Part shown: positions 16,581 to 22,911 of the stretch, in pieces
Layout of the letters: every line of letters starts with the position of its first letter
Numbering within the stretch: the stretch's first letter is position 1
Assembly: GCA_007122455.1 (NCBI GenBank)
Contig: SKTU01000131.1
Location: 1-33,864 of the forward strand
Source of the DNA: Haloarculaceae archaeon
GTDB lineage: Archaea; Halobacteriota; Halobacteria; Halobacteriales; Haloarculaceae
DNA: 33,864 nt
Direction of reading: 5' to 3'
Made by a program: the position numbers and the translations under genes
Notes under the pieces: generated by a model
The model's input: the letters and a program-made list of their open reading frames with translations, nothing else
Database searches by the model: none
Told to the model about the DNA's origin: nothing

Positions 16581-16920
16581 CCGCCTCCCGGAGGTCGAGG
16601 GCACGCTCGAACTCGTCGCGCCGATCCAGCGTCGATCCGAGCCCGAGCAGGTGTTCCTCGTGCGCCCGGCGTATCGCGTCGGCCTCCCGCTCGTGGAAGC
16701 CGAGTTCCTCGGCGATCGACGCCCAGTGGCCCCGTTCGACCAGAAAGACCGCGGTTTCCTCGTCCTCGTGAACGCATTCGTAGCTGCGCCGGTACTCCTC
16801 GAGCCGCTCGGTCAGCGACGTGGCGGCACGCTCGACGAGCGGCGGAAGCCGTTCGCCGGCGATGCTCGCCTTCGCAGCCGCGAGCACGAGCGCACGCCCG
16901 TCGAGCGATCCGGAACTCAT
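16555..16920 (-). CDS. Uncharacterised 121-residue protein, last gene of the SAMP3 operon
   Basis: The product is soluble, charged and predicted all-helical, with no membrane segment. A region around residues 62-85 (ERGHWASIAEELGFHEREAD) resembles a helix-turn-helix-like or sensor helix pair, but I do not recognise the family. Its ATG overlaps the preceding stop (ATGA), so it is translationally coupled to the 84-residue gene and hence to SAMP3. Coupling suggests a role in the same pathway. The 3' end overlaps the convergent hydrolase gene by 26 bp. Confidence 0.7.
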   Translation of the reverse strand: MSSGSLDGRALVLAAAKASIAGERLPPLVERAATSLTERLEEYRRSYECVHEDEETAVFLVERGHWASIAEELGFHEREADAIRRAHEEHLLGLGSTLDRRDEFERALDLREAVTVPKGTP

Positions 16921-17171
16921 CCCCCGGCGCGGATCGCCTTCCGGGCGAACGCCTCGATCACGGGGCCGAGAGCGTCCTCGTCGCCCTCGAATCGGACGGT
17001 GACCTCCGTGAGCGTGATCGATCCAGCGACGTCGACCGACTCCGAGGACAGCGACGCCGACCAGCCGTCGCCCTCGATTCGATCCTCGTCGATCCGCTCG
17101 CCGCCGACGTTCTCGAGGTAGTGGGCGGCGAGCCGCTTGGAGATGCCCCGGAACTGCCGTTCGACGCGCAT
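16917..17171 (-). CDS. 84-residue SAMP3-linked protein ending in Gly-Gly
   Basis: The small protein has a helix (about 8-22), two long strands (about 26-50 and 52-62) and a terminal helix (about 66-82), ending RKAIRAGG. The start overlaps the SAMP3 stop by one base (TGATG), and its own stop overlaps the next start. In Thermus a MoaD-type domain is fused to a C-terminal domain called DUF1952. The pattern here could be that partner encoded separately, but this rests on order and secondary-structure guesswork. The terminal Gly-Gly may be chance or may mark a second activated tail. Function is unknown. Confidence 0.75.
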   Translation of the reverse strand: MRVERQFRGISKRLAAHYLENVGGERIDEDRIEGDGWSASLSSESVDVAGSITLTEVTVRFEGDEDALGPVIEAFARKAIRAGG

Positions 17172-17452
17172 CAGCCGCCCGCGACCGGCGGGAAGACGCT
17201 CACGGAGTCGCCCTCCGAGAGCGGCGTCGCCGTCCCCTCGATGTGAAGCACTTCGCGACCGTTCTTCAGCACCGAGAGCTGTGGCCGGATATCGCCGTCC
17301 TCGTCGAGCAGTTCGCCGGCGAGTTCCGGGAACTCGGACTCGATTGCCGCGAGGACGTCGCCGACGGTGGTCCCGTCGTCGAACTCCCGCGTGATGCTCT
17401 TCTCACCGACCGCCGCTCGGAACGTCGCGAAGAACCGAAGCTCCAACTCCAT
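17171..17452 (-). CDS. samp3: Ubiquitin-like small archaeal modifier protein, SAMP3-like (MoaD/ThiS fold)
   Basis: The 93-residue beta-grasp protein begins MELELRFFATFRAAVG and ends SVFPPVAGG, closely matching the Haloferax SAMP3 pattern as I remember it. The free Gly-Gly carboxylate is adenylated by the E1-like UbaA and then joined to lysines or converted to thiocarboxylate. The frame is open far upstream to 17920, but only ATG 17452 yields the ubiquitin-like fold. It is the second gene of a four-gene operon, 23 nt after a 128-residue helical protein and one base from the 84-residue gene. A second, SAMP1-like gene is 5 kb away. Confidence 0.85.
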   Translation of the reverse strand: MELELRFFATFRAAVGEKSITREFDDGTTVGDVLAAIESEFPELAGELLDEDGDIRPQLSVLKNGREVLHIEGTATPLSEGDSVSVFPPVAGG

Positions 17453-19237: not shown

Positions 19238-20970
19238 CGGACGTCGACGGCGATACCGCGCGTCGATTCGACCATCGCGGCGCCGTGGGACGCCGCGCGC
19301 CCGACGCCGAACGCCCTCGGTCCCTCGAAGACGACCTCGTCACCGGGTCTGATCGACTGATCCGCGTCGAGAACGCCCGGAGCGAGGACGCTCCCGCTCG
19401 GCACGAAGCCGTCGATCTCGACCCGTTTCGCCGGGACGTCGCTGTCGACCCACGCCCGTCCGCCGGCCAGCGTCAGCGACAGCGTCCCGTACTGCGGCAC
19501 CATCGTCGCGAGATGAGTTCCGTCGGCGTCACGGACCCTGAGCGAGGGGTATCGACCCTCCGTCTCCGCGGCTGCGAAGAGCTCGTCGCCGGCCGCGTCG
19601 CCGAACTGGAAGTCCGCGATCGACCGCACAGTCGCCGCCTCGCGTTCGGATTTCAGATAGCTCGACTCACCGGAGAGCGCGTCGTCGAGTGCGGCCAGCG
19701 AGTCGTCGGTGGTCGGATGATCCTCGACGGTGTATTCGAACTCGATTTCCGCGGCTTCGGCGGCCCGCTCACAGATCTCCCGATAGCCACCGGGCGGGAC
19801 GTGTGCGACGTGGCGGTCGTAGTCGGCGCGATCGAGATATCGCGCAAGTATCGCGGCGACGAACTCGATCTCGGTTTCGGACCACTGGCCCGTGACGACG
19901 CTATCGTAGTGTTGAGCCGGATACGTCGTCTCCAGCTCGTTGGGGACGACGCCGATCGGCGAGGTCATCGAAACGATGTGACCGCGATAGCCGATCGCTC
20001 GCGAGAACTGCCGGTGGCTCTGGGAGTCGCTGTACGGTTTGCGGGCCGAACACGGCACCAACACGAGCGGTGCGTCGAGCCGGCGGCGATACCGGCTCGT
20101 CACACGGTCGGCGAACCGCTGGATTTCGACGCGACGGAGCGAGTCGTCGCTCGCGGCCAGCAGCTCGCCGCGCCGGAAGACGGGCGTTCGCTCCTCGAGA
20201 TAGCCGTACTGCCGGTCGAGTCGACGGAACGTGGCAGTGAGCCACGCTTCGTGTCGCGCCTGGCCCTCGATGTAGTCGCGAAGTCGCCCGTCCGCGATCC
20301 GGCGTCGAACGGTCGCGAGCGCAGCCCCGAGCGCGTTGGCGTTGTGGTCGGCACAGTCGGCGCGGTCGAACGACTCGAGCGGTTGCGCACAGGCTCGACA
20401 GGGACAGGGAAGTTCGTCGAGATCCTCGAGGAACGCTTCCCCGTCGGTCGTCAGATAGAACCCCTCAAGCCCCCGCACACGGGCGCGCTTCTCGTCGACG
20501 AGGTCGACACCGGCGTACACCAGTGTACCGACGTTGGCGGGCGTGGCGACGCCGGAGAGATACAGCGCCGTGTCGTCGGGGATCGCCTCTCGAACGTCGA
20601 CGATCGCCTCGCAGAACGCCTCGGCGTGGCCGACGTATCCCGGCGCCCCCGCGAGCACGTAGGCGTCGGCACCGTAGTTCGCGGCCGTCTCCGGCGAGAT
20701 TACCGCCGCGGACGGATACGCCACGTCCGGATACTCACCGGCGAACGCCTCGGCGACGCGCTCGTCAGTCCCCGGGGGGAACGCCCGGTGGGGGAGGATC
20801 GTCAGTGCCGATTCGTCGCCGTCGGGACGCTCCCGCCCCTCGTGCCACCGGCTGCCGACGTCCACGACGATGTCGTCGACGGTGGCCGGAGTCCGGCGCG
20901 GCTCCGAGAGGCGAAGTTCGCCGCGACGAGCGGCACCGTCGCGCTCGTGAACCTCGAAGTGGTCGGTCAT
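19219..20970 (-). CDS. arcS: Archaeosine synthase
   Basis: The 583-residue enzyme finishes archaeosine at position 15 of archaeal tRNA by converting the preQ0 nitrile to a formamidino group. Its hallmark is [15 protein letters not shown] (305-319), the ArcS PCSxxKPYSxSxSH motif. A transglycosylase-like N-terminal part has a cysteine cluster (C189, C191, C194) that may bind zinc. The C-terminal 75 or so residues form a PUA RNA-binding domain. Length and domain order fit euryarchaeal ArcS rather than the shorter variants. ATG 20970 overlaps the tgtA stop by 4 nt (ATGA), so the two steps of the pathway are co-translated. Confidence 0.94.
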
Positions 20971-22481
20971 GCCTTCCCCTCCCCGTCGCCGGCGTAACCG
21001 TCCTTCGGTTCCTCACCCAGCCGATACTGTCCGACGCCGTCCGGGAGCGTCCCGAGAACGGCGTCGGGCCACCGCCAGTGGGCGACGGTGAACGTGACGT
21101 CCGGGTTCGCCGCCACCAGTCGGCGAACGCCCGCTGCCGCGGCCTCGTAGGCAGCCCGATCGAGGCGTTCGGGCAACTCCGCCGTCAGCGGGTAGCTGTC
21201 CGACAGCGCCGGCGGGTACGGCCCGAACGGTGGCCGGAGCCGCCACGTCTCGTCGTATCGCTCGTTGGCCTCGCCCTCCGAGAGGAGGACGCTCTCGCCG
21301 TCGACTGCGAGCCGCGAGAGCCGCTCGTGGTGGCGTCGCACTTCGGGACGGCGAGCCGACTCAGTGGAGAGATAGAAGAACGATCCCTTCGAGACGGGAT
21401 CGCCGGCCTCCAGCTGCTCGGCGCCCGCGTCGAGCAGCGCCCGGTAGCCGTCGAGCATCGCCGGGTGACCGCGGGCTCGACGCTCGACGAGTTCCAGCAA
21501 GTTCCCCCGCCGGATCGCCTGCTTGATCCGCCGGATCTCCTCGTAGCTGACGTGGAGGTTGTGCTCGGCGAGCCGCCGCTCGCGGCGCTCGTCGTCCAGC
21601 CCTCGAAGTTCACTCGCCGTGTGGTCCGCACAGACGGGACACGAGCAGGGGAGGTAGTCGAGTTCGTCGAGCTGTTCGGTTCCGGAGACGGTGAGATACC
21701 GATCGTCGCGAGCATACAGCGCGTAGGCGGCCGAGTCGAAGAGGTCACATCCGGCTGCGACTGCGAGCGCGAACATCATCGGATGACCGGCGCCGAAGAG
21801 ATGTACCGGCGCGTCCACACCCAACCCTCGCTTGGCGGCGAGGATCGTCTCGACCATCTCGGCGTACCGATAACCGTTCATCAGTGGAACGACGGCGCCG
21901 ATCGGTAAGACGTCCAGCGAGGTTCCGTAGGCGTGTCTCGCCGCAGCCTCCCGCAGCTCCGGATACGTCGATCCCTGTACCGGCGCGTTGACGAGCATCT
22001 CGCCGACGTCGACCGCCTCGGCGCGTTCGAGCCGTTTTCGGGTGGTCGCGAGCTCCGACTCGGCCCGCTCGCGGGAGACGTCCGGCGGGGTCGGAATGTC
22101 GATCGGCGTTCCGATGTCGGAGCCGATGTCCCGCTGGAAACGGAGGATCTCCTCGTTCGTGACGCTGATCTCGCCGTACTCCGAGAGCTGGAACGATCCC
22201 GAGTCGGTCATGATCGCTCCGGAGAACTCGAGCAGATCGTGGAGCCCCTCCTCGAGTGCCCGCTCGCGGAACTGCTCGCTCTTGTAAAAGATGTAGCCGT
22301 TCGTGATGAGGATCTCGGCGCCGAACGCCGACTCGAGCGTCGCGGGCTCGATCGTCCGGAGGTGTGGGTTGATGACCGGAAGGAGTGCCGGCGTCTCGAC
22401 GGTCGTGTCCGCTCGCGGCACGTCGAGTTCGCCGATCCTGCCCGCGACGTCGACGTCCCGGAGTTCGAAGACCTCACGCAT
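20967..22481 (-). CDS. tgtA: Archaeal tRNA-guanine(15) transglycosylase
   Basis: The 504-residue enzyme swaps guanine-15 of tRNA for preQ0, the step before ArcS. Catalytic aspartates are seen at D93 (MTDSGSFQ) and D249 (CDLFDSAAY), and the zinc site at C279, C281, C284 (LPCSCPVC) with a downstream histidine in [13 protein letters not shown] 22481 (MREVFELRD) is chosen; the upstream ATG 22559 adds 26 residues with no fold and crosses the promoter region. It forms one operon with arcS and is divergent from the SAMP1-like gene, with 86 bp between the starts. Confidence 0.94.
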
Positions 22482-22567: not shown

Positions 22568-22861
22568 ATGACGATGGAGTGGCGACTGTTCGCCAATCTC
22601 GCGGAAACCGCCGGCGAAAAGCGCGTCGAAGTCGACATCGAACCGGGAGCGACGTTCGGGGACGCAGTCGACGCACTCCTCGCAGAGCACCCGGAGCTGC
22701 ACGACGAGGTGTTCGACGAGGACGGCGACCTCCACGACCACGTTCGCGTCCTCCTGAACGACAGCGACCCCTTCGTCACTCGCGAGGGGTTCGACACCGT
22801 CATCGAGGAGGAAGACACTCTGGCGCTGTTTCCACCCGTCAGCGGCGGAAAGGTACAGTAG
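22568..22861 (+). CDS. samp1: Ubiquitin-like modifier, SAMP1-like, with residues beyond the Gly-Gly
   Basis: The 97-residue MoaD/ubiquitin-like protein (or 95 if starting at the second ATG, 22574) begins EWRLFANLAETAG and contains LFPPVSGG, as in Haloferax SAMP1, which modifies proteins and supplies sulfur to molybdopterin synthase. The reading frame does not stop at the diglycine. It continues KVQ and then TAG, so the Gly carboxylate that UbaA must activate is not free in the primary product. Either a protease trims it, the protein works without activation, or it has lost the role. No indel is apparent. It is divergent from tgtA. Confidence 0.82.
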   Translation: MTMEWRLFANLAETAGEKRVEVDIEPGATFGDAVDALLAEHPELHDEVFDEDGDLHDHVRVLLNDSDPFVTREGFDTVIEEEDTLALFPPVSGGKVQ

Positions 22862-22911
22862 CTGTTTGATCCTACAGAAGGCACTCCCCCACTGATCCCT
22901 TCCCGTCGGGT

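Follow-up and report, generated by a model that had tools for sequence, protein, structure and literature searches.

The samp1 gene on a contig of a haloarchaeal draft genome probably encodes a precursor, pro-SAMP1, that is matured by the desampylase JAMM1. The protein carries a short tail after its Gly-Gly, such tails recur across the order behind an intact Gly-Gly, all components of the pathway are encoded in the same genome, and the association of tails with JAMM1 is strict. Precursor SAMPs and their processing by JAMM proteases are known in principle. Natural precursors of SAMP1 in haloarchaea, the way they repeatedly come and go, and their confinement to genomes that carry JAMM1 appear to be new; no description of haloarchaeal SAMP tails was found in the open-access literature, with subscription papers mostly outside the search.

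The window, i.e. the whole stretch of 33,864 nucleotides that was analysed, is contig 32 of a Natronomonas genome (2.93 Mb, 149 contigs, 87% complete), and its features are summarized in Table 1. Positions 22568-22861 of the forward strand translate into 97 amino acids with the C-terminal end ...LALFPPVSGG-KVQ-TAG (...EEDTLALFPPVSGG-KVQ-TAG), and the codons GGC GGA AAG GTA CAG TAG at 22844-22861 agree with the initial annotation, which had read SGG, Lys-Val-Gln and a stop at the end of a SAMP1-like frame. The identity as SAMP1 is borne out as well: the product matches the NCBIfam SAMP1 equivalog NF041918 over the full domain (119.6 bits, curated cut-off 60, profile positions 1-91 of 91) and PF02597 (ThiS) with 48.8 bits. 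For the gene span, the annotated stop stands, while the start is probably the ATG at 22574, two codons downstream of the annotated 22568, because all 19 same-genus orthologues begin with M-[E/D/Q]-W (MEW, MDW or MQW). Both profile alignments stop at residue 94, the second Gly, and the alignments to the best solved relatives, Haloferax SAMP1 (3po0/4hro/2l83), also reach residue 94. In the AlphaFold2 model, whose core is fairly confident (mean pLDDT 83), the final 6 residues are below 50, which is consistent with an exposed and flexible terminus. The divergent neighbour of samp1 presumably encodes an archaeal tRNA-guanine transglycosylase.

Table 1. Features in the window (plain coordinates) and partner genes elsewhere in the source genome (G000, with contig).
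Feature	Position	Strand	Basis
samp1 gene	22574..22861	+	NF041918 equivalog 119.6 bits; orthologue starts (MEW = 22574)
Beta-grasp ThiS/MoaD domain, last residues Gly-Gly	22583..22849	+	PF02597 residues 6-94; AlphaFold2
GGC GGA, Gly-Gly for UbaA activation; predicted cleavage point	22844..22849	+	Sequence; SGG in 20/20 Natronomonas
Tail Lys-Val-Gln (AAG GTA CAG), predicted propeptide	22850..22858	+	Sequence; tails in 16/20 of the genus, 70 genomes of the order
TAG stop codon	22859..22861	+	Sequence
Presumed tgtA, divergent neighbour of samp1	20967..22481	-	Beside samp1 in 16/20 Natronomonas loci (tblastn of window protein against samp1 loci)
Second SAMP-like gene (SAMP3-like), tail-less internal control	17171..17452	-	NF041918 105.2 bits; TIGR01687 78.3 bits; AGG-TGA end
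JAMM1	G000:C98:13242-13622	-	NF041370 162 bits, cut-off 130
UbaA (SAMP E1)	G000:C98:12454-13161	+	NF047750 496.8 bits, cut-off 450
MoaE	G000:C133:10438-10761		PF02391 97 bits, cut-off 23.4

In the SAMP1 of the window, Gly-Gly is not at the encoded C-terminus, and the same is true for most of the genus. SAMP1 was present in all 20 Natronomonas genomes searched, with SGG intact in every one, and a tail follows SGG in 16 of them, including assemblies in one to three contigs; a tail in the source genome is therefore expected rather than surprising. The tails are KVQ, SRK, AR (three genomes), GR (two), RR (two), CRR, RRR, CGAG, CEAG, DGGVAQRPV, SSVAQRPV and SGVSQTLV, while the SAMP1 of the other four genomes, G007 among them, stops at GG. 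The core and the LFPPVSGG end are conserved in the tailed members, and MoaE is kept in 19 of the 20 genomes. The tail is common in presence, not conserved in sequence, and appears to have been repeatedly gained or lost; the concatenated tree of the genus, in which several inner branches are weak, requires at least four tail-state changes. A scan of the genome contigs with the SAMP1 alignment gave 19 named loci, and the same scan with a single protein gave none.

The initial annotation had suggested an alignment of orthologues and had considered that the tail might be absent in every relative. It turned out that the tail is not specific to this assembly, and only its sequence differs. This also makes it very unlikely that a sequencing error in the source genome alone created the tail, with the true stop directly after Gly-Gly, given how many relatives carry one, some of them in assemblies of very few contigs. 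The draft state of the genome would allow such an error, AAG is one base from TAG, and the nearest samp1 orthologue is merely 69-71% identical, so that the residues KVQ themselves are without a close comparison. As a general explanation for tails, assembly error was rejected, as closed genomes carry them too.

For the order-wide sample of 392 genomes, we used a GG-stop pattern (FPPV-Ser-Gly-Gly followed by TRR), which was matched in 298 genomes, and read the gene ends individually for most genomes without a match. TRR admits TGG (Trp) too, of which there is none among the matches listed. Among the listed matches to the SAMP1 protein, all reach the final Gly except one truncated hit, G136 (query 3-79). 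The tail state was determined in 373 of the 392 genomes, and the remaining 19 include 14 JAMM1-negative ones. SAMP1 tails occur in 70 genomes of the order, spread over 26 genera in 9 families. Most are 1-9 residues long, with rare long tails of 37, 47 and more than 70 residues, and Arg is the last residue in 44 of the 67 fully read tails. Genus g25, which is probably Halorubrum and whose tail sample is biased, has the four-residue form [S/A]-x-G-R, genus g35 has SGRR-type tails, and several genera have single residues. In L237 (G158), a g35 species, the SAMP1 stop of its congeners is lost (TGA to TCA), leading to a read-through of more than 70 codons past SGG.

JAMM1 was detected with the NF041370 profile in 279 of the 392 genomes, and 113 were negative. 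For the 373 genomes of known tail state, tails are found solely together with the protease (70 of 274 JAMM1-positive versus 0 of 99 JAMM1-negative genomes; Fisher p 3.1e-11). Because genomes are not independent and JAMM1 is lost clade-wise, the honest p-value is the genus-level one: with genera as units and JAMM1 shuffled within families, there are 0 tailed genera without JAMM1 versus 3.9 expected (p 0.004). Two genera of mixed JAMM1 status contain tails, and both agree with a dependence on JAMM1. In g60, the JAMM1-negative genome has a GG-stop and the JAMM1-positive genome has the tail ARPDTDA, and in g90, four JAMM1-negative genomes are all GG-stop and the tailed genome is JAMM1-positive. 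In G018, a tailed metagenome-assembled genome with 82% completeness, only the second JAMM was detected.

JAMM1 is missing from whole haloarchaeal genera, namely from 26 of 26 g3 genomes and all sampled g2, g4, g8, g10, g13 and g14 genomes, besides others. Its absence is therefore not just a matter of incomplete genomes, and conjugates in these genera would either be taken off by another route or stay in place.

The source genome encodes UbaA and MoaE, the partners of SAMP1, as well as JAMM1, so that both the JAMM protease and the MoaE which the initial annotation had suggested looking for are present. JAMM1 and UbaA are convergent neighbours, and UbaA also lies in the flank of JAMM1 in at least six further Natronomonas loci. 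The active site of JAMM1 is intact, with the catalytic Glu (EVVG) and HSHx7SxxD (HSHPRGPLEPSDVD), and P. furiosus JAMM1 (5lda/5ld9) is among its sequence relatives in the PDB. The genome also encodes a second JAMM, which is more divergent.

We propose that the uncut tail KVQ blocks the C-terminal glycine, and UbaA therefore could not adenylate it. JAMM1, a JAMM/MPN+ desampylase, would cleave after Gly-Gly, and the mature SAMP1 set free in this way would act with MoaE in molybdopterin synthesis and serve as a protein tag. As JAMM1 would trim anything after Gly-Gly, the stop codon would be free to drift; tails could arise, alter and disappear while JAMM1 is retained, and would not be tolerated once it is lost. 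Under this proposal, neutral drift permitted by JAMM1 would cause the variation of an extension that looks short and dispensable, behind an SGG that is invariant. Cleavage of KVQ in the source organism and inactivity of the uncut protein are predicted by analogy with published systems. In Haloferax volcanii, HvJAMM1 cuts a linear fusion of SAMP1 to MoaE exactly behind the last Gly of SAMP1, both in vitro and in vivo (PMC4443979). The cleavage in vivo requires jamm1 and GG, with no cleavage after GG deletion, and it restores molybdopterin function and DMSO respiration (PMC4443979).

Two other fates of the tail were weighed. It could be retained, leaving a SAMP1 that is not activatable and is decaying or has a non-covalent role, with SAMP3 or SAMP2 substituting for it; the C-terminal glycine is indeed blocked as encoded, and a GG-ending SAMP3-like gene lies 5 kb away. 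We consider this highly improbable, since decay should be independent of JAMM1, yet tails depend on it, and the conserved core, LFPPVSGG end and MoaE of the genus do not look like decay. The loss of activation, which the initial annotation had placed beside a pro-modifier with a JAMM/desampylase maturase, is accordingly rejected as the main reading, as SGG is kept wherever tails occur; the pro-modifier is strongly supported by the distribution of tails over 26 genera and only in JAMM1-bearing genomes, by the encoded partners and by the HvJAMM1 precedent. Alternatively, the tail could be cut off by another protease, such as a carboxypeptidase or a general cytosolic peptidase, JAMM1 being merely correlated. 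Many tails are short with an Arg end, as carboxypeptidase B-like trimming might favour, whereas a general peptidase does not predict the complete lack of tails in the 99 JAMM1-negative genomes, and the longest tails extend far beyond a few residues. Besides, JAMM1 is the sole enzyme shown to cut SAMP1 at this point (PMC4443979), and we regard another protease as unlikely.

The proposed maturation of SAMP1 by JAMM1 has several known counterparts. In eukaryotes, precursors of ubiquitin, SUMO, NEDD8 and Atg8 have short variable C-terminal tails that are removed before E1 activation, mostly by cysteine proteases, and their homology to SAMP1 is only at the level of the beta-grasp fold. The MoaD-like SAMP precursors of Candidatus Caldiarchaeum subterraneum are likewise archaeal precursors cut by a SAMP-specific JAMM protease, CsJAMM (PMC6043591). 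That case concerns one uncultured archaeon in vitro, whereas here the tails belong to Halobacteria, where sampylation was defined, and are short, variable, turning over between species and linked to JAMM1 across hundreds of genomes. The pro-ubiquitin of C. subterraneum is refractory to its own E1 until its 9-residue tail is cut (PMC5654768). There too a short peptide after Gly-Gly is removed by a JAMM metalloprotease, an Rpn11 homologue (PMC5654768, PMC6043591), but the system has an Rpn11-type enzyme and eukaryote-like E1/E2/E3, whereas SAMP1 is homologous to MoaD, and neither an E2 nor an E3 is known for it. In bacterial MoaD-MoaE fusions, for example with DRJAMM of Deinococcus radiodurans, a blocked MoaD-type C-terminus is likewise freed by a JAMM protease, but what follows MoaD there is an entire functional domain and not a short, disposable tail (PMC8832034). 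The system of H. volcanii has orthologous modifier, E1 and desampylase (SAMP1, UbaA and HvJAMM1), but its SAMP1 ends at Gly-Gly and the cleaved fusion was an artificial construct (PMC4443979). The precursor described here occurs naturally, and its cleavage is predicted.

In Haloferax, SAMPs terminate at Gly-Gly and can do without maturation, and the desampylase is described as an enzyme that removes conjugates. SAMP1 encoded in a locked form in about a quarter of the JAMM1-bearing haloarchaeal genomes sampled would give JAMM1 a second, essential-looking role. If this is true, tailed species, unlike Haloferax, should lose both molybdenum-cofactor function and SAMP1 conjugation when jamm1 is deleted. 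A more far-reaching version, which we consider possible but doubtful, is that in many haloarchaea JAMM1 is both obligate maturase and recycling enzyme, so that all new SAMP1 is locked and molybdenum-cofactor synthesis and sampylation are both gated, and that in some lineages the propeptide itself, such as the [S/A]-x-G-R of g25, is selected as a signal for cleavage or control. Tails that are gained and lost time and again could serve as a natural experiment on the origin of pro-ubiquitin-style precursors, in which a stop codon becomes free to drift once a protease trims what follows Gly-Gly. Tailed SAMP1 will be missed wherever archaeal modifiers are searched for by their C-terminal GG.

As for how tails arise, recent stop-loss as a general origin is at odds with the sequences: of 78 SAMP1 genes with a GG-stop, only 13 have their next in-frame stop at most 9 codons away, versus 64 of 70 tails that are that short. 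Therefore, either long read-throughs are selected against, or tails come from small changes near the stop. Among 26 Halorubrum-type tails, nearly all variation at positions 3-4 (Gly, Arg) is synonymous, whereas at position 2 the third base is fixed and every change is non-synonymous; conservation is higher in the 3' flank than in the tail. The last positions thus look conserved at the protein level, a pattern not expected from pure drift, but with a flank that is conserved still better, selection on the tail sequence is no more than a possibility.

Conserved blocks were also seen downstream of samp1. At the g25 loci L162-L187, TAGATCGGTCGTTTCAAA lies right 3' of the tail, and its conservation suggests a 3' regulatory element or a downstream promoter. 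In the window, GTTTGATCCTACAGAAGG at 22864-22881 (+), just 3' of the samp1 stop, resembles GTTTGAGCCnCCACAAGG, which several Natronomonas carry on the 3' side of samp1; this block is the sole window match at up to 2 mismatches, with 0.01 expected. In G002, G003 and G016, the TGA of the GTTTGAGCCnCCACAAGG-type block is the samp1 stop.

The second SAMP of the window (coding part 17174-17452, -) ends properly at Gly-Gly, as the initial annotation had stated, and all SAMP3-like genes of Natronomonas that were read stop at AGG. The next gene (16917-17171, -) encodes an 84-aa protein ending in IRAGG, and its start codon shares bases with the stop of SAMP3 (TGATG). Makarova and Koonin (2010) associated a halobacterial GG-ending small protein (arCOG06308) with MoaD-like genes (PMC2948915), and the 84-aa protein is probably of this kind. 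Short SAMP3 tails after AGG exist at loci L207-L229 in several genera, some of them apparently imposed by a stop that overlaps the start codon of the gene behind it, e.g. GGCGGGACATGACC. At L213 (G339:C1 ~946232, minus strand), in a genome that carries JAMM1, SAMP3 and the downstream small protein (end MRAGG) form one continuous 199-aa frame, in which two GG-ending proteins are linearly fused in a manner reminiscent of polyubiquitin.
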